64,000 nucleotides of DNA, from contig NW_004191750.1 in assembly GCF_000330505.1 (NCBI RefSeq), positions 591,470 to 655,469 of the forward strand, written 5' to 3'. Both the position numbers and the translations under genes were made by a program. The number at the start of each line of letters is the position of its first letter. Position 1 is the stretch's first letter. This stretch comes from Entamoeba invadens IP1 (taxonomy: Eukaryota; Evosea; Mastigamoebida; Endamoebidae). The notes under the pieces are model-generated. The model had not been told where the DNA came from and did not search any database. It saw only the letters and a program-made list of their open reading frames with translations. Of the stretch, positions 660 to 64,000 are shown piece after piece.

Positions 660-2114
660 ATGTATAAGCCTGTAAATCCAACGACGGACACTATCCCACT
701 CACTAAAGAACACTATAAAAATGGACTTAAACTATTGAGCGAAGGGAAAGCTGCATTAATAACACTTGCAGGAGGCCAAGGAAGTCGACTTGGATTTGAA
801 CATCCAAAAGGGATGTTTGTCATCCCTCTTAAAAATCCAATTTCTATTTTCGGAACAACAGCTGCGCGACTTCTGTGTCTTCAGAAACTTGCGAATGCAC
901 ATGCGAATATTACAACAACAAAATTGCACTGGTTTTTGATGACAAATGAAGAAACAACAGAGGAAATCAAAACATTCTTTAAAGATCACAACTTCTTTGG
1001 ATTGTGCGAAAATCAAATCCATTTCTTCCCTCAAGGTATGCTCCCTGTCACTGATTTTAACGGTAAAACACTTTACGAAGAAATAGGAAAGCCGTTTATG
1101 GCGCCAAATGGACATGGGGGACTTTATAAAGCATTGGAAGATAATGGCGTGTTGGATTTTATGGAGAAGAGTGGCATTAAATACACTGTTGTTCACAATG
1201 TCGATAATATAATGAACAAAGCTATTGATCCAAACATGATCGGGTATATGGATTTGTTACACTCTGACATTTGCATCAAAGTAGTGAAGAAAAGTTTCAA
1301 AGAAGAGAAGATTGGAATTTTAGTTGAAGAAGATAAGAAGGTGAAGTGCGTTGAATATACTGAATTAACAGAAGAGTTGAATAAGATTAAAGACAATGGC
1401 GATTTTGAATATGGAAGTGGACACATCTCAATCAACGCCTATACTACAGAGTTCTTTAAAAAGGCCGCACACACACAATTGCCATTCCATATAGCCAAGG
1501 AGANNNNNNNNNNNNNNNNNNNNNNNNNNNNNNNNNNNNNNNNNNNNNNNNNNNNNNNNNNNNNNNNNNNNNNNNNNNNNNNNNNNNNNNNNNNNNNNNN
1601 NNNAGATAGAGTGAGTGCGTGATATACTGATTACAGAGAGTGATAGATAAGACAATGCGATTTGAATATGAAGTGACACATCTCAATCACGCTATACTAC
1701 AGAGTTCTTTAAAAGGCCGCACACACACAATTGCCATTCCATATAGCCAAGAAGAAGGTCACACATATACTAGAAGATGGCACTAAAGTAGAACCCAAGG
1801 AGAATAACGCTATTAAAAGAGAAATGTTCTTCTTCGACGCGTTCCCACTTGCTGAAAGAGTCTCTGTGTTTGAAATTAAAAGAGAAGAGGAATTCTCAGC
1901 AATTAAGAACTCAATTAAAGAAGAGACTGATAATGTTAATACCGCTATAAAAGATTTTTACGCTTTGAATGTCAAACATCTTAAGAACGCTGGTGCAATT
2001 GTTGACGATTCAAAAAGTAAGGTCTGTGATATCTCATTTGAAAGAACATTTGAAGGAGAAGGACTTGAAGAGTTCAAAGGAAAGACTGTTGTTCTTCCAT
2101 TTTACCTCAACTAA
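660..2114 (+). CDS. UAP1: UDP-N-acetylglucosamine pyrophosphorylase, interrupted by assembly gap
   Basis: This enzyme makes UDP-GlcNAc (or UDP-hexose) from UTP and the sugar 1-phosphate in the cytosol, feeding chitin and glycan synthesis. The nucleotide-binding signature LAGGQGSRLG lies at residues 37-46, followed by the HPKGMF segment typical of eukaryotic UAP1. A run of 100 N breaks the gene at 1504-1603. The bases after the gap (1604-1757) repeat 1360-1503 with many single-base deletions. The good parts are therefore 660-1503 and 1758-2114, which meet in the same frame and would give about 400 residues, a plausible size for the family. The gene itself is probably intact and the break artefactual. 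Confidence 0.85.
1504..1603. other. 100-N assembly gap followed by duplicated low-quality sequence
   Basis: Exactly 100 undetermined bases, the conventional placeholder for a scaffold join of unknown size. The 150 bp after it is a degraded copy of the 145 bp before it, with runs shortened by one base (for example AAAAAGG to AAAAGG). This indicates two contig ends that overlap but were not merged, so the true gap is negative. Confidence 0.9.
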
Positions 2115-2256
2115 ATCAACATCTTTGAAATATTTGTTTTTGTTATTAACCATATTTTTTATATCACTAATCAAACAATTTTGTTTCATAAATTGTTTGT
2201 TGTCAATTCATTAAAAAATTAAAATCTATTTAAAAAAATTTTGAATTTTTAAAAAG

Positions 2257-2327
2257 TGCACTAACCGGGACTCGAACCCGGATCTCCACCTTGGGAGAGT
2301 GAAATTCTGCCCTTAGACCATTAGTGC
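2257..2327 (-). tRNA. tRNA-Gly (CCC)
   Basis: Reading the minus strand, the acceptor stem GCACTAA pairs with TTAGTGC, with discriminator A. The D arm is TGGTCTAAGGGCA, the anticodon loop is CTCCCAA (anticodon CCC) and the T arm is CCGGG-TTCGAGT-CCCGG. The anticodon stem closes with a T-G wobble pair, unlike its sister copy at 3485-3555, where it is C-G. A-box and B-box promoter sequences are intact and a run of T follows the 3' end. There is no intron. CCA is not encoded. Confidence 0.93.
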
Positions 2328-2777
2328 TTTCTTAATATTCATATTGAAATTGACTTGTATTGAGGTTAGATATTAAAATGTTATTAAAAATTTATAAATT
2401 ATTATAAATATCAAAAAAAATTTTGAGATGATGTGTCAAAGTTTCTATCGCAATGTGGTCTTCTGATTATGACAATTTGTGAAATGGTGAGATGTGTCAA
2501 AAGTAATTGAAATGTAATTATTGTGGAGAACACAAAAAGCCAATCACACACATGTAACAATTAAAACCAAAAGTTACACAAAACTACTCAAAGAAGTTGT
2601 ATGATATTGATAACCAAATAAATACTATAATATCTATTTACAATTAAAATGCAATTCATCTTTTCAAAAATAGGATGACATTCTGGACACGTGAAGTGAA
2701 ATGAGTCATTGTACTCTGTGTCGGTGACACGTTACCCACTCTATAAACAGCCAACTGAAAGCAAAGACAAACATTTC
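2328..2777. other. tRNA 5' flank and peroxiredoxin upstream region
   Basis: The first roughly 30 bases match, in inverted orientation, the 5' flank of the second tRNA-Gly (about 3455-3484). The duplicated unit is therefore longer than the tRNA itself. A short frame starting at ATG 2701 reads eight codons (Cys-containing) to a TGA. It could be a remnant of the peroxiredoxin N-terminus in another frame, since family members in Entamoeba begin with Cys-rich extensions. Confidence 0.4.
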
Positions 2778-3416
2778 ATGTGTGAGAAAGAGTGTCCAGC
2801 AAAGAAGGCATATGAAGACTTTCTGAGAATTGTGCCAAAAGTGCAAGTTGGCGAAGAAGCGCCAGAGATCAAAGCTCAGTGCCTTTGTCCGTGTGGTGCA
2901 ATCAAGGACTTTGACATGTCTGAGTACAAGGGCAAGTTCATTGTGTTGTTGTTCTACCCACTCGACTGGACTTTTGTCTGCCCAACAGAGATGATGGGAT
3001 ACTCCAAACTTGCAGAAGAGATGAAGGATGTCCAGTTTGTTGGCATCTCAGTCGACTCCGTCTTCTGACACAAGGCGTGGACCGAGGCACCAAAGGAGCA
3101 CGGCGGTGTTGGAAAGCTTTCGTTCCCACTTGTTTCTGATATCAAGAAGTGCATCAGCATGAGATACAACATGTACAATGCGGCTGACGGCATTGCACGA
3201 CTTGGGTATGTCATTGTCGACACAAAGGGGATTGTCAGATACATGCAAGTCAACGACAACGGAATTGGAAGAAACACAGACGAGACAAAGAGAATCATCG
3301 AAGCAATCAAGTTCTCGGACGAACATGGCGATGTCTGCCCACTCAACTGGAAACCAGGAAAAGACACAATGAAACCAACACCAGAAGGCGTTGCTGCTTA
3401 TCTCACAAAACACTAA
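2778..3416 (+). pseudogene. 2-Cys peroxiredoxin with in-frame TGA
   Basis: Typical 2-Cys peroxiredoxins reduce hydrogen peroxide using thioredoxin. The peroxidatic Cys is in the motif DWTFVCPTEM and the resolving Cys is in GDVCPLNW near the C-terminus, so both catalytic cysteines are encoded. A TGA at 3066-3068 interrupts the frame after SVDSVF and before HKAW, a position where family members have Ser, Thr or Cys. The frame then continues without fault to TAA 3416. The start is uncertain. ATG 2778 is the first in-frame ATG, but the frame is open back to about 2709, and a Cys-rich N-terminal extension may be partly lost by a frameshift. This is either a recent pseudogene copy or a sequencing error. 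Both sides are bounded by inverted tRNA-Gly genes. Confidence 0.8.
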
Positions 3417-3484
3417 TTGACTTGATTCTTCACATTGAAGTCTTTACACACCCACAAGTCAATTTCAATATGAGTATCAAGAAA

Positions 3485-3555
3485 GCACTAATGGTCTAAG
3501 GGCAGAATTTCACCCTCCCAAGGTGGAGATCCGGGTTCAAGTCCCGGTTAGTGCA
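3485..3555 (+). tRNA. tRNA-Gly (CCC)
   Basis: Acceptor stem GCACTAA/TTAGTGC, anticodon stem TCACC/GGTGG around loop CTCCCAA (anticodon CCC), T arm CCGGG-TTCAAGT-CCCGG, discriminator A, then a T run as polymerase III terminator. It differs from the minus-strand copy at 2257-2327 by two substitutions. The two copies face outward from the peroxiredoxin gene with conserved 5' flanks. Confidence 0.93.
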
Positions 3556-3885
3556 CTTTTTATATTTATTATTTATAGTTAAGTTATTAGAAATTATTAT
3601 AAAAAATACCATGAGATAGAGAAAAATAATTTTAAATAATTATTTTTTTTCCTCTGTTTTTTAAATGAATTATTTGAAAAGTTGACAAATCAAGTTTTCA
3701 ATGACAAATTTGTCTATTTAAACAATTTATTAATGATAATGAAATGTTTACATGTATCAAATATAATTATTATTATTATCATTCTTTGTTTTTAAAACAT
3801 TAACCAAAAAATGTTGTTTCTGAATGTAAAATAATTTTTTACGGTTTTGACCAATCAATTGACGACTTGAGTGGTTTTTAGATAA

Positions 3886-45779: not shown

Positions 45780-45934
45780 TAATTTGGTATTATTTTTTAT
45801 TAATATTTACAAAATGAACACAATTATTTTAAAATAAGATATGATAAAGTAATGATATAAAAACAAGTAGTTTTCAAAAAAACACGATTTAAAGTGAAGT
45901 CGATTAAATGGTACAACTTGAAAGGCTGTGTGTA

Positions 45935-46105
45935 CTACTGTTCAGCTTCTTTTGCTGCCTTCTTGGCGCCCTTTCCATGAGCAAAGCCATGAACGCTTTG
46001 TTTAGGGACTTTCTTGGTCTTTTCGTGTGGTTTGTGAACACCCTTTTCCATTGGTTTCTTGCCGCCTTCTGTTGCTGGTGCTGCTGCTTTAGCCTTCTTG
46101 TCCAT
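45935..46105 (-). CDS. 56-residue Lys/Ala-rich basic protein, left copy
   Basis: The mirror image of the gene at 54185-54355, with identical sequence. The encoded protein begins MDKKAKAAAPATEGGKK and ends AKKAAKEAEQ. It is strongly basic, without hydrophobic segments, and resembles the tails of linker histones or small nucleic-acid-binding proteins in composition only. I do not recognise the family. Confidence 0.5.
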   Translation of the reverse strand: MDKKAKAAAPATEGGKKPMEKGVHKPHEKTKKVPKQSVHGFAHGKGAKKAAKEAEQ

Positions 46106-46578
46106 TGGTTGTGATGCTGAATAGCACCCCTTATATAGTCCGTGCTTTCATTCTTTGCTACACACAACGTGGAACCACGCGCTGACATTGTTCTCTTGTG
46201 CCGTTTCTTGTCAAATAACGCAACAATCGATATATAAATTGTGGTGCTCACACACGTACCGTCACATCGGGACTTGTGGGGAGTCAATAACAAAATGCCG
46301 CGTTCTAAAATGTGCAGCACAATTGCAGTATCATTGTGTATTGTAAGCTGTACCACTCAGTATAGATTGTCCCATTACTGTGCTGACTGCCATGGTAATA
46401 ACCGGATTATTTCATACATCATCGGCAGGCGCGTCTTGTGATGCTGTTTTTTAGACCAAATACGCGCTAAATGCCCAACATTGTGCGTATTTGCATTTGT
46501 GTGATGCCACTTTTGGACAAAATAGAAAACTCAAAATCAACACCACGCAAATACAACTCAATATCATTTTTTACTAGT

Positions 46579-46840
46579 AACTATACTATACATTACGTGA
46601 TGATATGGTACATTGCTACCAACGAGCACAGAACGCCGTGCTGTTTTGTGAACATTTCAATGTACCATACGTGTTGGTACAGAATACCATAGTCTATAAC
46701 TATACTATAAATAGAGAACCGCCATACGTGTCAGCTATATTGGGTGCGCCATCTTGGAATGCAACGCCGCGTCTGCCGCAACCACCGCACTTTGAAAAAA
46801 AACCAAAACAAAACTATACCAATACAATATAACATGGTAT
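46579..46840. promoter_or_regulatory. cluster of iterated and palindromic motifs in the left arm
   Basis: Two copies of AACTATACTATA (46579-46590 and 46698-46709). TATGGTACATTG at 46604-46615 with its exact complement CAATGTACCATA at 46658-46669. A further TACCATA at about 46685 and ATGGTATA near 46834. Interleaved TACCAAC and GTTGGTA add a second pairing. This lies between the two divergent genes of the arm and may hold their promoters or protein-binding iterons. The right arm has the same at about 53450-53711. Confidence 0.5.
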
Positions 46841-46918
46841 AATCAAGGGAACCATTCGATCCGGCAGAATAAAAGTAGTGTGCACGCGTTGTCGACTCAA
46901 ATAATCAAGTCACAGATC

Positions 46919-46930
46919 GGCAGATCTGCC
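46919..46930. promoter_or_regulatory. palindrome GGCAGATCTGCC
   Basis: A perfect 12-bp palindrome 17-28 nt before the ATG at 46947, embedded in overlapping AGATC repeats. The mirror copy is at 53360-53371. Confidence 0.4.
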
Positions 46931-46946
46931 AGATCTACAATTTGAA

Positions 46947-47126
46947 ATGGCGTTATCCCGTCATTTAAACAATTTCCCGCGTAACATGGAAACAATAGTT
47001 GAGGTATGGCACAGTGCTCTTTATTGTTTGTGTGCATTTTCAAGTACTATCTCATTTACTATAAATGTACTATATAATAATGTTATAATTTTATTATTAG
47101 ATAAGACTTTTTTAAAAAGTTTATAA
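46947..47126 (+). pseudogene. truncated 5' gene fragment crossing the inner junction, left copy
   Basis: A 59-codon frame starting MALSRHLNNFPRNMETIVEV. The first 43 or so codons are in the arm and are shared with the right copy. The rest differs because the frame runs out through the inner boundary at 47076. A good Entamoeba 5' splice site, GTTTGTG, lies at 47026 within the shared part. The arm may thus carry the first exon and part of the intron of a gene whose remainder was left behind. A chance frame is possible. Confidence 0.35.
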
Positions 47127-47903
47127 TGAAGATTAAATTAAGATCTGGAGATCTTTTTGTTGCAATATTCTTTGATGTTATTTAACCTTACAATGTCGGT
47201 AGAGTAATTAAAATAACATTTATTTTTAAACCATATGAAAAATATGAAAAAAAAACAAAAAAAACTTAAAAAATCAAGTGTGATTCATTGTTAACAAATT
47301 CTCGTAAATTGAGACTTTACGATATCAAAAATTGATTTGTATTGTTCTGACATGCAATTCAAACTTGTTTATATTTCAAATGATGTGTTGATATTATTAA
47401 TTTAATGATACGATTTTAGTTTTTTTTATTTTTTTTTCGAATTTAGGAAATGTAATAAAAATAACAAGGGTGCCATTCTGAGATTTTTGGTATTTTGTTT
47501 TAGTTTTGTTATTCATCCGCAATCCTAAGGTTAAAGCAATTGTACCACATGTTTATAGTTTTATTACAGTTAATGGAAAAAGTGGGATGCTGAGAAAAAG
47601 AAGATGCTCATCTTAATATTAATTAATTTAATATTATTAATAATAAATAACTAATATAATTTTATTTGGGTTTTTCATTTTATTAATTTTTTGATTAATA
47701 ATTTATATTAAAATTAATAGTAATTTTATTATTTTTCAGTTGAAATTAACCAATAGTTACGAGCATCCTCCTTTTTCGAGCATCCCCATATTTCCTCCTA
47801 CTGTATAAAAATGAAAGCGCATTTAATTGGTTGGTAATGGGGAAAGAGAGTTGTTACAACAAAATGTTGGTGTTGACAAATCAAAACTCAAAAATAGCAA
47901 GAT
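47077..47903. other. AT-rich region inside the inverted repeat, with a foldback
   Basis: Low-complexity A/T DNA from the arm boundary to the EF-hand gene, including the MITE-like element at 47584-47786. Confidence 0.5.
47584..47786. mobile_element. MITE-like foldback, about 200 bp
   Basis: Imperfect terminal inverted repeats of about 26 bp (21 matches over 27 aligned positions) beginning GGGATGCT, each containing GATGCTC again at its inner end. The interior is A/T-rich and non-coding. No convincing target duplication was found, so an old insertion or a simple hairpin are both possible. Confidence 0.45.
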
Positions 47904-48380
47904 ATGGCTCTGAGGATTGACATGTTTGATGTTTTTGACAAGAACAAAAGTGGATATATAGAGCCGGATGAATTTGTAATTGGAATGCGTGGGATAGTTG
48001 GTTCAATTGCCGGCAGTGATATTGAGAAGGTCTATACTTTGATCCTCCGTGCGGCGGACGGTGTTGGGCTTTTTGATGCTCGTGATCGAAAACTGAATCG
48101 CCACGAGTTTGAAATCATTGCTAAGCACACTCCAAATGATTTTGGGGTGGACAAAATTGTTTGTGTCATTCGCCTATTGTTTGACGTCTTTGATACAAAG
48201 CAGAGTGGGTTTATTAGTGTTGCAGACCTTGACAAAGTAACAGACAACAAAAGTGGTACAAAGAGCGTCTCACAACAAATGCGGACGCGTGTGATGCAAA
48301 TGGCGTTCAAGAACGGGAACAACTCACTTAACTTCACGGACTTTGTTGAGTATATCAAAGATTTCATCAGATGCAATTAA
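47904..48380 (+). CDS. EF-hand calcium-binding protein, calcineurin B/NCS-like
   Basis: 158 residues. The first loop DKNKSGYIEPDE is canonical. A second hand around DARDRKLNRHEF is close to canonical, and a third, DTKQSGFISVAD, ends in Asp. The fourth (KNGNNSLNFTDF) is degenerate. The spacing, with a long linker between hands 1 and 2, recalls calcineurin B or calcium-dependent regulatory subunits more than calmodulin. No myristoylation signal is present. It is the first gene inside the inverted repeat. Confidence 0.8.
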   Translation: MALRIDMFDVFDKNKSGYIEPDEFVIGMRGIVGSIAGSDIEKVYTLILRAADGVGLFDARDRKLNRHEFEIIAKHTPNDFGVDKIVCVIRLLFDVFDTKQSGFISVADLDKVTDNKSGTKSVSQQMRTRVMQMAFKNGNNSLNFTDFVEYIKDFIRCN

Positions 48381-48844
48381 TTCTTTTGTTTTAAAATGCT
48401 TTATATTTGGGTTATTACAACTTTCATACTACATTCAAAAATAGAAATAACAACAAATACCTTTTATTCTATATACGTTAATATTTTGTATGTTTAACCT
48501 TACCATATACATATTGTTATTGTTGTTTTTCAACAACATAACCTAATTGTTAGGTCGCTTTGAAAAAGGTGCTTATTTTTGCAAAAATTTAGAACATTTC
48601 AGTTATTCACGACTGATTTGTTAAATCATTTAAAACTTTACATCGTTTCTTTTAACAAACCAATAAAAATATAAAAATATCTTTGTTTCCTTTAAAAGCG
48701 AGTGGATTAATAAGATTGGTCGCAGTATAAGCCACAATTTAACTTTCACAACATCAAAGTAAAACTGTTATAAACTTTACAAACCAGTATTTATTTGATA
48801 ATATACAAGGTTGCCTTAAAAAGAACTGAACAAATAAACCATTA
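48381..48844. other. AT-rich intergenic region
   Basis: No gene or repeat seen between the EF-hand gene and the TLDc gene, which point the same way. Confidence 0.45.
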
Positions 48845-49468
48845 ATGAAAAAATACAGTATTGGTCTTGGACTTGGGCAGAACGTTGTAACCCCAATACC
48901 ACCAATATTTCCTCAAAATCGATCAGACTGTGTTAATCTGAGAGAACCACGTTGTACAGATGCAATTCTGGACTTAATGGAAGCGGAGAGAGTAGAGAAC
49001 TGGTGTGGATTGAAAATAGGGCAAGTTCTATTTGACTCAACAACAGATGATTGGTCCATTAATAAATCTGTATTTGCTTCAAAATTGTATGGCATTTCCA
49101 ACCTTCTTTACATTATTACAGATGGAACTGGAAATAAATTTGGGGCTTTTGTGTCCAAGCCATTTCATCAACAATCTGCATGGGTTCGTGACGAGGATGC
49201 TTTTATATTTATGTTGAAATACAAACTTTCACAAGGATTGAAACCAATAGAAATCACTATGAATGGACACGAACACGCTTTTTATGTCTTTGGGAACGAT
49301 GAAGACGAACTCTGTGCATTTGCGTTTGGTGAGATTCTTGTATATAAAAAAGATTTTAGAAACAAAAGCTGTTGCATCCCAGACTACACAGACAACCCAC
49401 CTTATGTTCTCCTTCCAACCGATCGAGTATTTTATGCTTACAGAATTTGTGTTGTAAAAATGATTTGA
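48845..49468 (+). CDS. TLDc-domain protein
   Basis: 207 residues. From about residue 60 the protein follows the TLDc pattern: VLFDSTTDDW, a buried LLYIITDGTGNKFGAFV strand pair, WVRDEDAFIFML, HAFYVFGN and CAFAFGEILVYKK. It ends with FYAYRICVVKMI in place of the family's Glu-Val-W/Y strand. This is a more typical TLDc domain than the two MGN-start relatives in this window. The first 50 residues are unstructured. Cytosolic, function unknown. Confidence 0.72.
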   Translation: MKKYSIGLGLGQNVVTPIPPIFPQNRSDCVNLREPRCTDAILDLMEAERVENWCGLKIGQVLFDSTTDDWSINKSVFASKLYGISNLLYIITDGTGNKFGAFVSKPFHQQSAWVRDEDAFIFMLKYKLSQGLKPIEITMNGHEHAFYVFGNDEDELCAFAFGEILVYKKDFRNKSCCIPDYTDNPPYVLLPTDRVFYAYRICVVKMI

Positions 49469-49688
49469 TGACTTGGTATTCTATTTATATCTTTTTACAT
49501 TTTTAATTAAACAAATCAATAATAGTTGTTTATAATAAAATATAGTTTAAAGTGCTTATAATGAATTAAAGTTTATAAAAATTAAAAAAATTAAAAATAC
49601 GTTTCATTTGTTACTTATAAAAGATATTTATATTGTTGCGTTCAAACATTTTTCGGCTTGAGTACCATTTTCAAAATTGATTTTAAAA

Positions 49689-50852
49689 TCAGAAGACCCC
49701 ATTCTTTAACTGCAAAATTTTCATTCTGAGAAAGTCATTAATTTGTAAAGCCTTTTTAACTTGCTCTTTCAAGAACATATTTGCATAACACTTTCGATCA
49801 AGTCTTTGTGATCTCCACTCTTGTAATTCATTTGAAGCGACAAGTAAGTCGATGTTGCCTTCTTTTCTTTTTCTAACAGTGTCAAAGACTATATCAAAAT
49901 CACCTTTAAACCCAACTCGAAGTAATGAAGCATCTTCCTTTATAACTTCACAAAGTTGTTCTAATGTTTCTTCATGTCTTGAGATGATATAAGGAGATTG
50001 ATAGTGTGGAGGGGTGCTCAAAACAATTCCAATTGTATAATCCACTGCATTTCCCATTTGTCCAGTTGCTTTTCCAACATTTCCAAAGAAACCATCACTC
50101 AACAATTTATAGAATGCGGTGATGTGACGAGTTGAATTGGATATTGGAACAAATAAATACCTCTCGAAAATGAGACGGACTATTGCTGTATGCCCCATCT
50201 CTTCACCATACTTGTTATAAACTATTTCAGCTACACTCCGGACAACACCCCGAATGGATTCTTTTATCAAAGGGACATATTTGGTGAGTAGATAGACATA
50301 CCTGTTACTTATCTCGTCTCCATTGTCACTGATATTGACGTCATCGACTATTGGAGATGATGTTGCACGAAGCACTTCGTTACCTTCTTCTTCAAGTAAA
50401 ATATCAAACAAATCAGTAAATGGTGTGCTTGTGGTGAACAAATCATCTTTAGAAAATGTGTTGACATCTTTTTGTGCAAAATATAGCATCAAATCAACAA
50501 GACGACCACGAACACTGTAAAAATTGTATAATACATTGGGTCTGGAATGATTCGCTTTTTTCGAGTCTATCTTTGTGTTAATTCAAGTCGTATTTAATAC
50601 AAAAAATAAAGATCAACAAACTAAGTCAAAGTACTTGTCAAGTAAAGGAGATATTTCAACAAAAAGAAACGACCTTACTGTTTGTTCTGTAGATTTCTCG
50701 TATAAACGAGTTGGTATTATAGGAGGAAGGGTTGTGATATTAACACAAGAAGAGACGGGACTTGTAGTCTGTGACACTTTTTTTGTTGGTCTTTTTAATG
50801 GACTTGTATTAAGTGGGTTGTAAAGTCTGTTCACACCTATCGAATACCTCAT
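49689..50852 (-). CDS. two-exon protein of unknown function
   Basis: Exons 50622-50852 and 49689-50570 encode 370 residues. Exon 1 is Ser/Thr/Pro-rich with basic residues and is probably disordered, ending SPLLDKYFDL. Exon 2 is helical, with LVDLMLYFAQKD, a segment YVYLLTKYVPLIKESIRGVVRSVAEI, and IFERYLFVPISNSTRH, which faintly recalls the FLRF-PA block of RasGAP domains. No arginine-finger motif can be confirmed. The last 80 residues are charged and helical. Confidence 0.5.
50571..50621 (-). other. probable intron
   Basis: A 51-nt intron on the minus strand beginning GTTTGTTGA, with acceptor ACAAAG, phase 0. It joins KYFDL to IDSKKANHS and continues in frame to the main exon. The acceptor is non-TAG and so less certain than the donor. 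Confidence 0.6.
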
Positions 50853-52047
50853 TTTACCTTTCTAGTGAGTTTGATTATTTTTATACCGTTCAAACCGTTT
50901 TGTTTTTGCTTTCAATAATTCAATTTTAATTGTCGGGAGTGCGAAAGAACATCGAATTGCGGTGGTTTAAATCCTTTATTTTAAGCAAAGATCGAATTGT
51001 TTCTGTTTTTCAAGTGTCGGGCTTTATTTCTGTTGTTTTTTAAGTAAAAATTTTAAATTAAAAATTAAACTTTTTAATATAAAAATTATTTTTTTTTATA
51101 ATAACTAATCAAAAAAATGACTTGACAAATGTGAAAACACTGTTTTTAATCATTTGTTATTGAATGAAATATTATATTTAACACTTTAATAATTAAATAA
51201 CTATAATATTAATAATTATCATTATTTTTCATTTAATAAACAAAAATTGTTTAGATTGATTAACAATTTGACAAAGTTAGTGAATCAATTTTTTTATTTG
51301 ATTATTACCCAAAATAAAATAAAGAAAAAATTTTTCTTTTGAATAAAATCGTTATTTCTAATTATTTGCACATCATTCACAAAATCAAATATCAATTTGT
51401 CAATGAAAATACCACTAAACAAAAAACGAATTGGTCAACTCAATTTCACTGTTTGAAATCTATAAGATTAAAAATATACAATAGTGGGTGTATCTCCTAA
51501 TTATTTACAGCTTACAATTAATTAATTAATTAACCAATCCACTTCATTTTTTGATGGTCATGTGTAATTCTAAAAAAGAATCCATATCTGTCAACCTCCT
51601 TTATACTTTATGTAAAATCAAACAAATTAATAATAATAGACAGTTTAAATATAACTTTAGATTGTGTCTTTATGATATTGTGATAACATATTCAAGTGAT
51701 ATTATTTAGACATTTTTAAACTGGTTTATTAACTGCCATGAAAAACAAAATATGTATTTCTATTTTTAATTAAAGTGAATGGTTTAATTAATTATTAAAA
51801 AAATTACATTTTTGTAAATGATTGATTTTTATAATAAATAAATAATATATTTTGACTATTTTTTAATATCAATTTATTTGTAATTAGTTGCACTTTGAAA
51901 TGGATTAAAATATTGATTATCATATGTACCAAAGGATTGTGATTTTGACTTTACATTCTATATTTGATATGAGATTAGCAAAAGATGTTTGATATTATAA
52001 ATAACAAACAAAACATTCAATTCATTTAGTTCTAATAATAACACATG
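50853..52047. other. AT-rich intergenic region
   Basis: About 1.2 kb with no coding frame, RNA gene or paired terminal repeats seen. A short, mixed-composition stretch lies at 50930-51040. Confidence 0.45.
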
Positions 52048-52905
52048 TTATAACCTTTCTTTGTTGATGTGTGTTGGCAATTTAAAAATACACCCATAAA
52101 ACACATCAACACCAAAAGTTATTAATGTGCTACCCATTACTACACTCTCGAGGTTTGTGCAATTGAGAAAACAGCGATTCCCAATTGAGGTGACACTTTT
52201 TGGTATTTCAATTGTTTTGAGTTGTGCACATCCAGAAAATGTCACCTCTTCGAGTTTGTCCAATTTCTCTGGAAGCTTCACATCGACGAGACTTTTGCAC
52301 TCACAGAATGCCAGTCCACCAATTCGACAGATGGAGCAACCAAAACTGACGGATTTCAAATTAGTGCATTTGTAAAAGGAATACGAGTCAATTGAAGTGA
52401 CACTCTTTGGGATGTATAAATTCTGGATGTTATTGCAAAACGAAAATGCGAATTGCCCTATTGTCTTCAAAGAAGTTTCAAATGAAGTAAATTGGGGAAT
52501 ACTGATTTGGTAATACGCAAATTGGTCGACATGGTTGATTTCTTTGGGGAGTACAAGTCCATGTTTTCTCACATCCTCCTTTGTGTACATCACGTTAACA
52601 CATTCGACATTGACGTTCGTCTTCTTCTTTAACTGAACAAATTCACTGTAATTGATTTTTGGAAGAAACACTCGGCGGTAGAAATTTTTGTTCTCGAACA
52701 AGTCGTCGGTCTTGGAGTATAAATATAGTGTTTCAAGATGTGTGAAAAGATTGATGTTGTTGTTTAAAAGTGGGACTGGGTTATAGTGGAACTTTTCCAT
52801 TATGTTTGTAAACTTTTTGCAAACAAAAGAGAGCTCAATAAAATCAGAAATACGGCCAAAATATTGAGAAACAACCATCATGTGAAATCCATCGAGAACA
52901 ACCAT
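52048..52905 (-). CDS. BspA-like leucine-rich-repeat protein, short form
   Basis: 285 residues. The N-terminal region (MMVVSQYFGRISDFIELSFVCKKF) matches that of the 1110-residue relative at 39805-43137. Both share the KEDVRKHGLVLPKEI-type hinge before the repeats. Five or so BspA repeats follow, for example YSFYKCTNLKSVSFG and NRCFLNCTNLESVVM. It ends shortly after a repeat core, so it may be a natural short member or a truncated one. No signal peptide. Confidence 0.82.
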   Translation of the reverse strand: MVVLDGFHMMVVSQYFGRISDFIELSFVCKKFTNIMEKFHYNPVPLLNNNINLFTHLETLYLYSKTDDLFENKNFYRRVFLPKINYSEFVQLKKKTNVNVECVNVMYTKEDVRKHGLVLPKEINHVDQFAYYQISIPQFTSFETSLKTIGQFAFSFCNNIQNLYIPKSVTSIDSYSFYKCTNLKSVSFGCSICRIGGLAFCECKSLVDVKLPEKLDKLEEVTFSGCAQLKTIEIPKSVTSIGNRCFLNCTNLESVVMGSTLITFGVDVFYGCIFKLPTHINKERL

Positions 52906-53213
52906 TTATATTAAAGAGTTTAATTCAATTTATATTAAAATATAAATAAAGTTATTCTTGATCAAAGTTAAATGTTAAAATGATTTTTTGAACTTAATCA
53001 ATTTGTTGAGTATTTAAATCAAATAAAAATGTTCATCTTGATTAAGAAAAAGATAAACAAATACATATTAAAAACTAGTAATTTAATAATATTTTTTAAC
53101 TTTTTCTATAATAATTTAATACATTTTAGTTATTATAACAATAATAAAATTGTATTAATAAATTAATAATAAGAGAAATATAAAAAATATTAAAAATGTA
53201 AAAAAATGGATTC
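52906..53213. other. AT-rich region up to the right arm
   Basis: No gene seen. Composition is A/T-rich up to the sharp boundary with the repeat arm at 53214. Confidence 0.45.
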
Positions 53214-53343
53214 TATATAGTACATTTATAGTAAATGAGATAGTACTTGAAAATGCACACAAACAATAAAGAGCACTGTGCCATACCTCAACTATTGTTT
53301 CCATGTTACGCGGGAAATTGTTTAAATGACGGGATAACGCCAT
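53155..53343 (-). pseudogene. truncated 5' gene fragment crossing the inner junction, right copy
   Basis: Starts with the same MALSRHLNNFPRNMETIVEV as the left copy. It diverges after crossing the inner boundary at 53214 into a run of hydrophobic codons from A/T-rich DNA. The divergence exactly at the arm edge shows that the downstream codons are not conserved, so this is not a complete gene here. Confidence 0.35.
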
Positions 53344-54152
53344 TTCAAATTGTAGATCTGGCAGATCTGCCGATCTGTGACTTGATTATTTGAGTCGACA
53401 ACGCGTGCACACTACTTTTATTCTGCCGGATCGAATGGTTCCCTTGATTATACCATGTTATATTGTATTGGTATAGTTTTGTTTTGGTTTTTTTTCAAAG
53501 TGCGGTGGTTGCGGCAGACGCGGCGTTGCATTCCAAGATGGCGCACCCAATATAGCTGACACGTATGGCGGTTCTCTATTTATAGTATAGTTATAGACTA
53601 TGGTATTCTGTACCAACACGTATGGTACATTGAAATGTTCACAAAACAGCACGGCGTTCTGTGCTCGTTGGTAGCAATGTACCATATCATCACGTAATGT
53701 ATAGTATAGTTACTAGTAAAAAATGATATTGAGTTGTATTTGCGTGGTGTTGATTTTGAGTTTTCTATTTTGTCCAAAAGTGGCATCACACAAATGCAAA
53801 TACGCACAATGTTGGGCATTTAGCGCGTATTTGGTCTAAAAAACAGCATCACAAGACGCGCCTGCCGATGATGTATGAAATAATCCGGTTATTACCATGG
53901 CAGTCAGCACAGTAATGGGACAATCTATACTGAGTGGTACAGCTTACAATACACAATGATACTGCAATTGTGCTGCACATTTTAGAACGCGGCATTTTGT
54001 TATTGACTCCCCACAAGTCCCGATGTGACGGTACGTGTGTGAGCACCACAATTTATATATCGATTGTTGCGTTATTTGACAAGAAACGGCACAAGAGAAC
54101 AATGTCAGCGCGTGGTTCCACGTTGTGTGTAGCAAAGAATGAAAGCACGGAC

Positions 54153-54159
54153 TATATAA
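54153..54159 (+). promoter_or_regulatory. TATA box of the 56-residue protein gene
   Basis: TATATAA followed by GGGG, 32 nt upstream of the ATG at 54185. The same element is at 46131-46137 on the minus strand in the left arm. The position fits the short leaders of Entamoeba genes. Confidence 0.5.
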
Positions 54160-54184
54160 GGGGTGCTATTCAGCATCACAACCA

Positions 54185-54355
54185 ATGGACAAGAAGGCTA
54201 AAGCAGCAGCACCAGCAACAGAAGGCGGCAAGAAACCAATGGAAAAGGGTGTTCACAAACCACACGAAAAGACCAAGAAAGTCCCTAAACAAAGCGTTCA
54301 TGGCTTTGCTCATGGAAAGGGCGCCAAGAAGGCAGCAAAAGAAGCTGAACAGTAG
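54185..54355 (+). CDS. 56-residue Lys/Ala-rich basic protein, right copy
   Basis: An ATG 26 nt after a TATATAAGG box opens a 56-codon frame ending TAG, with regular use of AAG, GCA and GCC codons. Composition is about one quarter Lys and one fifth Ala, with HKPHEKTKK and HGFAHGKGAKK in the middle. A longer 150-codon frame (53934-54386) overlaps it in another phase, but it starts far upstream of the TATA box and is rich in codons that look like chance. I prefer the short frame. Histone-tail-like in composition; function unknown. Confidence 0.5.
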   Translation: MDKKAKAAAPATEGGKKPMEKGVHKPHEKTKKVPKQSVHGFAHGKGAKKAAKEAEQ

Positions 54356-54667
54356 TACACACAGCCTTTCAAGTTGTACCATTTAATCGACTTCACTTTA
54401 AATCGTGTTTTTTTGAAAACTACTTGTTTTTATATCATTACTTTATCATATCTTATTTTAAAATAATTGTGTTCATTTTGTAAATATTAATAAAAAATAA
54501 TACCAAATTACGTGCACCCAAATAATAAATTAAATCATAAATTCAACTTTTTACTTGTTTTTAAAAACATTCACACATTTTTTTAACGATGTATTTTTAT
54601 AAAAAAGTAACAAAACTATATTCAAAAGTTTTTTATTTATTGAAAAAAAATAACAATTTAAGTCAAA

Positions 54668-62204: not shown

Positions 62205-63389
62205 GTTAGTGTGGAGTTAGTAGTTCTTAACATATTATATATACCTTCCTCTTGATTTTTCTCTAATATAATTATCATAAATAGGTATAATCTGAAAGAA
62301 ATGTGTTCCCCTTAAATTTGTGGAATTTGTAAAAATTTGATAGTTGAGAAGAATTTCTATTTTAAGAGATTGAAAACTACTTGGGGAATTCTCGAGCAAT
62401 CTGGTCGTCGTTTTTTTAAAAATTTTTAAGAACAAATTTGAATTATTATTATTAGCGTTATTTTGGCTTTTTTTAGTCAATTGTTTCGGGTTTTTATAAG
62501 AAAAAAATGGAAATAAAAAAACAAAGAAAATTTACGAATTGTCTTGAGGTAATAACTTTATACCATTTTTTATTAATTATACTATTTATTAATGGTTGAT
62601 ATATTTTGGAATAAACAGTTATTCTAAAATATATTAATAATAATATCAGTAAATGATATTCACTTTTATACTTTAGTTCTGGAATTGGTTTATTATACCA
62701 AATTGGATAACAATTATTTACAGTGTTATTCACTGGGTTTTCGATTCCCACCATTTTCAATAATTATTAAGTCAGTTTATTAAGAGAAAGGATGAATAGT
62801 TGCACGAAAGACTGGCGATATTTTTTAAAGACGTCTTTTGTGTATTAGGGATGTCTTCCCGTTATTTTTGATGTCCTCACTGTGTATGGGGATGTCCCTT
62901 CTATTAATTTTGTGTCCTCAAAATTTCAAAAACTATAAAACGAGTTATAATTTAACCATTATTTTACTATTTAATAAAATAATCATTTCCAAAAATAAAT
63001 AAAATAGTTAACAAACACTATAGAACAAGTAATTTTGTTATAAATTAATAGTTTGAATGAATTAATTATTATTTTTTATTGGTCATTTAAAGTCACTTTG
63101 AAACAGCTTTTCCAACACAACAACCCAATACTCCCGCAATTTTAGCAAAAATTAATTACAATTATTATATATTGAAAAGTATTTGATATCATTTTATATA
63201 AAACAAAAAATAACAACAATGAGTCAATCAAATTCTGCTTGTGTTTTGTACATTGTTGAGATAATTGTGCTCATCTAACACCTCTTCATTTTCTCTTAAT
63301 ACATTAGATTCATTTTCACCGCGTTCGAATCGAAGCGCTTCAACATTTGCCATTGTTCCTCCAAGCCTTTCGAAATTTTCAATTATTCG
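62205..63389. other. intergenic region next to a transposase remnant
   Basis: About 1.2 kb, A/T-rich except around 62770-62930, where a two-copy tandem repeat lies. It may include the 3' end of the element carrying the transposase, but no terminal inverted repeat could be paired inside the window. Confidence 0.4.
62841..62920. repeat. imperfect 40-bp tandem repeat, two copies
   Basis: Copies at 62841-62880 and about 62883-62920 share the order TGTAT, GGGATGTC, a T-rich centre, and a TGTCCTCA end. Four (G/A)TGTC words occur in 80 bp. Possibly the subterminal region of a DNA transposon; this is inference. Confidence 0.4.
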
Positions 63390-64000
63390 TTAAACAGACT
63401 GGGGAATTTTGATTATTATCTTATCGTTTAACAAAGAAGGGTTCAAAAGATAAAAATGAATATCCCACATTGGGTGCATCATAATATGATAATTGTTGAA
63501 GGCGTGGCACATTAAAATCACATCTGTATATTCATCAAGTGAATATTTCCACTTCTTTTTGGTGATTTCAAAAAGAAGAGTAAGTCTTCCAAAGGAATTT
63601 TCAACTATTAGTCTGCAATTGCTAACAAGTGAATTTCTAAGTTTTGTTAAGGCGTGGCGGTGAGGATCAGAAGGATAAGGCCATGTAGTTATACCATTTT
63701 TTGCACTTCTATAACCTGTATCACCCAAAAAAAACATTCACCATTTCGAATATACTGATCCCATTCATACAAACCAAATATACGAAAATCGTGATATGAA
63801 CCTGGTATTGAAGTTGTTATTCCACATGTCAAACCAAAATAATTGACACTCACACTCGTTTTGATTGCAGAGCAATTCACTTTTGGTGAATAAAACACAG
63901 AATTTGTGAATTCCCTCACACCAACAATTTTTCGTTTATTTGTAATAGCATGATCTCTCACATCAATTGCGGTATAACAATTATCAAGATCCTTTATGTG
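63390..64000 (-). pseudogene. DDE transposase (PIF/Harbinger or IS5-like), frameshifted and partial
   Basis: Two overlapping frames form one transposase that continues beyond the window. The upstream part has AIDVRDHAI, YSPKVNCSAIKT and PGSYHDFRIF with a catalytic-type Asp. The downstream part has FLGDTGYRS with the next Asp, then RLIVENSFGRLTLLFEI with the Glu, followed by about 50 residues. This is the DDE superfamily endonuclease arrangement found in HARBI1 and ISL2EU/IS5 elements. The frames are out of register by one base at a run of eight A (63727-63734), so the gene is broken or the run was misread. Confidence 0.75.

Follow-up and report, generated by a model that had tools for sequence, protein, structure and literature searches.

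Inverted repeats are substrates for recombination in Entamoeba. On plasmids, 730-bp inverted repeats flip a 1.6-kb spacer in both E. histolytica and E. invadens, and this recombination has been reported to rise during encystation of E. invadens (PMC3787063). The same report describes recombination between chromosomal pairs of the short interspersed nuclear element SINE1 in E. histolytica, with 85% identical copies around a 500-bp spacer and 100% identical copies around a 12-kb spacer. In other eukaryotes, inverted segmental duplications and gene-conversion palindromes, such as those of the human Y chromosome (PMC6790999), likewise consist of a spacer enclosed by long inverted arms that are nearly identical to each other. 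A 64,000-nucleotide stretch of the E. invadens IP1 genome (contig NW_004191750.1; hereafter the window) carries a pair of inverted 1,297-bp arms around a spacer of 6.1 kb, which probably represent a recent intrachromosomal, two-copy inverted segmental duplication. A close likeness is found on E. histolytica scaffold DS571234, where two inverted EhSINE1 copies also form a pair of 100% identical chromosomal repeats with a spacer on the kilobase scale (12 kb vs 6.1 kb here); it differs in that SINE copies are abundant and recombination was measured there (PMC3787063), whereas the arm described here has two copies and inversion between them is only predicted. The arms differ from the human Y palindromes (PMC6790999) in measuring 1.3 kb and in holding no proven gene, and the two copies may simply be young rather than kept alike by conversion.

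A repeat search of the window found the arms to be 100% complementary, inverted and 6,137 nt apart, and a script comparison gave a letter-for-letter match after reverse complementing, in agreement with the original prediction that they are equal in length and identical (Table 1). The flanking DNA differs at all four arm edges in the same comparison. Arms and spacer together measure 8,731 bp (~8.7 kb), with a copy-to-copy distance of 7.4 kb. A chance origin of the pair is excluded by the length of the arms, and the sole run of N within the window lies at 1504-1603, so that there is no gap at the arms. The locus therefore presents two long, highly similar copies in opposite orientation, on one chromosome and with different flanks, as is the case for inverted segmental duplications. 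Among the papers listed in a search of the literature, no title or abstract opening describes this arm pair.

Table 1. Features of the inverted arms and the spacer (positions are those of the window)
Feature	Position	Strand	Remarks
Left arm	45780..47076	-	1,297 bp; reverse complement of right arm
Right arm	53214..54510	+	1,297 bp; identical to left arm
Spacer	47077..53213		6,137 bp, between arms
Candidate 56-amino-acid Lys/Ala-rich frame, right arm	54185..54355	+	Reads outward; TATATAAG and ATTCA upstream; unproven as gene
Twin 56-amino-acid candidate frame, left arm	45935..46105	-	Reads outward
Miniature inverted-repeat transposable element (MITE)-like repeat, ~355 bp	47181..47535		Ends TTAACCTTA/TAAGGTTAA; covered by 11 of 47 listed spacer matches
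MITE-like foldback repeat, ~250 bp	47560..47816		Ends TACAGT/ACTGTA; many copies, 89-95%
EF-hand protein, 158 amino acids	47904..48380	+	Pfam
TLD-domain protein, 207 amino acids	48845..49468	+	Pfam
Part of EIN_173660 (370 amino acids, public record)	49689..50492	-	Protein match
BspA-type leucine-rich repeat (LRR) protein, 285 amino acids	52048..52905	-	Pfam

The genome searched for further copies comprised 34,981,079 bases in 233 contigs (34.98 Mb). In its published form the assembly spans 40,878,307 bp over 1,144 scaffolds, with gaps written as 100 N (PMC4053983), so that about 5.9 Mb fell outside the search. The arm DNA matches just itself and its partner (both candidates scored), and two matches each were likewise obtained with the 957-bp upstream part of the arm and with the 56-amino-acid arm frame at expectation values (E) as high as 10, with both of the two candidates scored in either case. 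The search of the assembly that the original prediction had proposed thus yielded only two copies in 34.98 of the 40.88 Mb of published span. Leaving aside the two MITE-like repeats and a weak match of the spacer to itself (106 bp, 74%), the full spacer occurs once and in a single orientation; the best 40 of 129 candidates were scored, and the repeat counts are lower bounds. Two 9-kb control queries taken from the window, a small sample, produced no second copy of at least 500 bp at 90% identity or more (14 of 14 candidates scored for one, the best 40 of 425 for the other).

The two arms could also be insertions, in opposite orientation, of a mobile element that is low in copy number and so far unrecognised; insertion of an unrecognised element was one of the three readings in the original prediction. 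Sharp edges, equal length and a composition unlike that of the flanks (a guanine-plus-cytosine (GC) content of 0.39, or ~40%, in the arm vs 0.19-0.26 in 500-base windows mostly within the flanks) all hold and favour such an element, as does a 6-nt direct repeat at the edges of the left copy, a length that 12.7% of 2,000 random flank pairs reach. At the edges of the right copy, however, direct repeats of 3 nt or longer are absent, and the 8.7-kb unit as a whole is bordered by a 4-nt direct repeat, a length that 50% of random pairs reach. The outermost 40 bases of the arm contain no terminal inverted repeat (TIR; local score 8 vs a shuffled mean of 9.0, P 0.80), and the TIRs of the whole 8,731-bp unit are, trivially, the arms themselves. 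Pfam scans of 10 of the 16 arm frames of at least 40 codons gave nothing above cut-off, with rows for three frames at E 0.097 or worse, and neither dispersed copies in the searched genome nor a transposase in these ten frames and the four spacer proteins was found. Within the scans and edge tests made, the original view that the arms are explained neither by a transposase nor by a TIR or a target duplication held. Insertion of an element is quite improbable given the copy number and the absence of element-like ends, although ~5.9 Mb of published span lie beyond the search and may hold further copies. Comparison of the arm DNA with phages and plasmids gave no match and the 56-amino-acid frame has no relative in viral contigs; this also argues against a mobile element, and an origin from phage, plasmid or viral DNA was rejected on these grounds. 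The arm does not look like an mRNA retrocopy either, as it ends in ...ACCAAATTA with no poly-A tail and retains an upstream region of ~970 bp before the candidate frame.

An inverted segmental duplication is the best fit of the three readings, because only two identical copies exist in the searched genome and both lie on one contig, and because they have four different flanks, no gap, no TIR and no target-site duplication beyond chance. By this account, repair or template switching at the DNA level would have copied one GC-rich unit of 1,297 bp, inverted, to a site at a distance of 7.4 kb, and gene conversion may or may not have followed. Several points weigh against this reading. Further arm copies may lie on scaffolds beyond the 34.98 Mb searched; the odd composition of the arm is not accounted for by plain copying of local DNA; the recency of the copying is presumed, as is its direction; and the perfect identity of the arms could have been made by the assembler.

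The last of these points bears on how identity is to be read. Celera Assembler may use a collapsed unitig as a surrogate at more than one site, and exact identity would then follow. The published assembly was made with version 3.10 of this program from Sanger reads of 1.5-2 kb and 4-5 kb inserts, with a unitig error of 0.5% and with the genome size set at 10 Mb to lessen coverage-based repeat detection (PMC4053983); Sanger coverage was 5X (PMC2657916). Surrogate placement and the 0.5% setting could have hidden a few base differences between the arms. 'Perfect' identity is therefore best taken to mean 'nearly identical or better', and it bears on age only if real. Gene conversion, recency and assembler-made identity cannot be told apart here. 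Judging from the insert sizes, no library clone would span the 8.7-kb structure, and the orientation of the spacer in the assembly would therefore depend solely on 1.5-5 kb clones. Under these circumstances it is possible, if rather unlikely, that the structure is in part a product of assembly, in which both places are real and were filled with one collapsed repeat unitig while the true arms differ slightly; that one of the two placements is wrong is a less likely form of the same explanation. Against an assembly product, each of the four differing flanks runs into its arm with no N, a junction that should have needed bridging reads, and a 1.3-kb arm is short enough to lie within one clone of 1.5-5 kb. 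The nearby 436-bp transposon ends described below kept one difference, though single Sanger reads can cross arms that short.

If the arms are a true duplication, they may act as a substrate for homologous recombination, by which, to judge from other Entamoeba inverted repeats, one arm would be converted to the other and the spacer inverted now and then. At 1,297 bp and 100% identity the arms are long enough for recombination in the genus, where 730 bp is known to recombine (PMC3787063). With arms exceeding 730 bp and a spacer below 12 kb, low-level inversion of the 6.1-kb spacer is expected, as a prediction by analogy. The idea that the arms flank an invertible segment, which the original prediction also raised, is consequently plausible as a by-product, since homologous recombination between inverted repeats is known in Entamoeba (PMC3787063). 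Inversion would flip four ordinary genes and leave the arms as they were; as the arms are identical and symmetrical and both emerge unchanged, no switching function is implied or supported. A programmed segment, with stage-dependent inversion of the spacer regulating its genes, is hardly credible: the increase in plasmid inverted-repeat recombination during E. invadens encystation (PMC3787063) is in keeping with it, but flipping between identical arms alters no arm sequence beside either end of the spacer, and Pfam scans of ten arm frames and of the four spacer proteins gave no recombinase-like match, shorter overlapping spacer frames not having been scanned. A bolder proposal, and a very unlikely one, is that arms homogenised by conversion make the four-gene spacer flip during encystation, so that stage-linked homologous recombination could be read out naturally on an E. 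invadens chromosome. The significance of the duplication is modest, as a feature of a known kind and a test locus for recombination rather than evidence of a new system; if real, a two-copy, kilobase-scale inverted repeat would be a natural, plasmid-free site in E. invadens for measuring recombination and gene conversion as the cells encyst. Any transcripts from the arms would have escaped the published expression analysis, because reads mapping to multiple places were dropped (option -m 1; PMC4053983).

How common such pairs are was gauged in 262,767 bases of the contig carrying the window (C201), made up of the window and 20 further stretches, some of them with N. An all-against-all comparison, with pairs of at least 200 bp at E up to 1e-20, was run on pieces compared separately, such that repeats cut by a boundary could escape. 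It gave six pairs, two of them direct (83% and 69%) and four at 98% identity or more, all inverted. Besides the 1,297-bp arms, the latter are a 311-bp pair with 100% identity and starts 897 bp apart, a 436-bp pair with one difference and starts 2.9 kb apart, and, at 98%, a 1.43-kb unit whose copies lie 133 kb apart. The 311-bp pair has 25 matches in the genome at 67-100% and the 436-bp pair 63 at 70-100% (best 40 of 109 candidates scored). Both pairs have CAGTG...CACTG termini flanked by TA, a DDE_Tnp_4 match falls within the 436-bp element (one of five frames scanned), and both are the ends of multi-copy DNA transposons. These long-TIR transposons resemble the 1,297-bp arms in having near-identical inverted arms around a spacer; they differ in their termini, TA flanks, genomic relatives and, in one case, DDE_Tnp_4, and no such feature was seen in the 1,297-bp arms. 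The 1.43-kb unit, which carries a tRNA-Gly gene, is also a multi-copy repeat. Near-identical inverted pairs are thus not rare in this contig, and the 1,297-bp pair is the only one of the four that lies outside multi-copy repeats in the searched genome.

The transposon with 436-bp ends extends over window positions 62719-64000 and L015:1-2085 and contains short frames. The element with 311-bp ends, at L027:2008-3215, has its outermost 65-66 bp in common with it. At window positions 2250-3562, two divergent tRNA-Gly(CCC) genes occupy a 109-nt inverted repeat (96%) within a 1.2-1.4 kb unit, full or partial copies of which (95-98%) are found in C201 near 363, 423, 496 and 727 kb and in C6. A direct duplicate of ~840 bp (83%, 5.1 kb apart) links window positions 662-1503 with C201:587024-587865 and adjoins the 100-N gap at 1504-1603.

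The composition of the arm was compared with 4,642 overlapping 950-bp windows without N from the same 263 kb, 846 of which have no stop-free run of 100 codons. These 846 have a median GC content of 0.247 and a 99th percentile of 0.384. Twelve of them reach 0.38, eight from a single stretch in L015 and four on the arms (overhang up to 24 bases), and the four arm windows are the highest of all at 0.39-0.41. The arm is therefore the most GC-rich stretch without a 100-codon stop-free run in the sample; the other GC-rich stretch of this kind (0.38-0.39) is L015:7551-8900. Decayed coding DNA, foreign DNA and a transcribed non-coding unit are candidate sources of the GC richness. A non-coding RNA was tried and rejected: the arm has no Rfam match at E up to 5, the upstream 937 nt fold with a z-score of -1.29 (2 of 20 shuffles equally good), and the only two Rfam matches in the window at the gathering threshold are tRNAs, both outside the arms.

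The arm was also rejected as a protein gene, as no frame scores clearly as coding. Its longest stop-free run (53934-54383) has 150 codons and a per-codon score of -0.09, which is lower than the 5th percentile (-0.02) for 613 real coding windows. The evidence for the 56-amino-acid frame is mixed. Its codon score of 0.15 falls between the 75th and 95th percentile of real coding windows; with its own composition as background it drops to the 2.8th percentile, and for synonymous choice it is at the 16th. Frames of at least 56 amino acids are frequent in simulated arms (mean 1.66; 84% of 500 arms hold one). The spacing of TATATAAG and ATTCA before the frame is like that in Entamoeba promoters. A TATA-like motif with ATTCA precedes 1 of 82 long frames and 3 of 508 short ones, and as it is similarly rare before both, the promoter-like motifs are suggestive only. 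A homologue search with the frame gave two candidates, neither at E up to 1, and no protein family match; an overlapping arm frame of 94 amino acids likewise has no homologue. The arm frames are probably without annotation, since the same protein database includes an E. invadens IP1 protein, and the 56-amino-acid frame is best treated as a candidate gene only.

That E. invadens protein is EIN_173660, to which the third spacer protein, itself without a Pfam match at E up to 0.01, is 100% identical over 267 amino acids; the UniRef name of EIN_173660 mentions a Ras-GAP domain. The four spacer genes are otherwise as first described, with an EF-hand, a TLD and a BspA-type LRR protein. An older duplication of the gene neighbourhood was rejected, because the two members of the TLD pair share 20% identity over 163 columns and those of the BspA pair 30% over 257, which is family resemblance rather than recent copying. 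Directly inside the left arm, at 47181-47816, two distinct MITE-like families that were absent from the original prediction lie side by side. The ends of the first appear piggyBac-like in sequence, and the foldback repeat next to it is also matched on the opposite strand at 65-67%.

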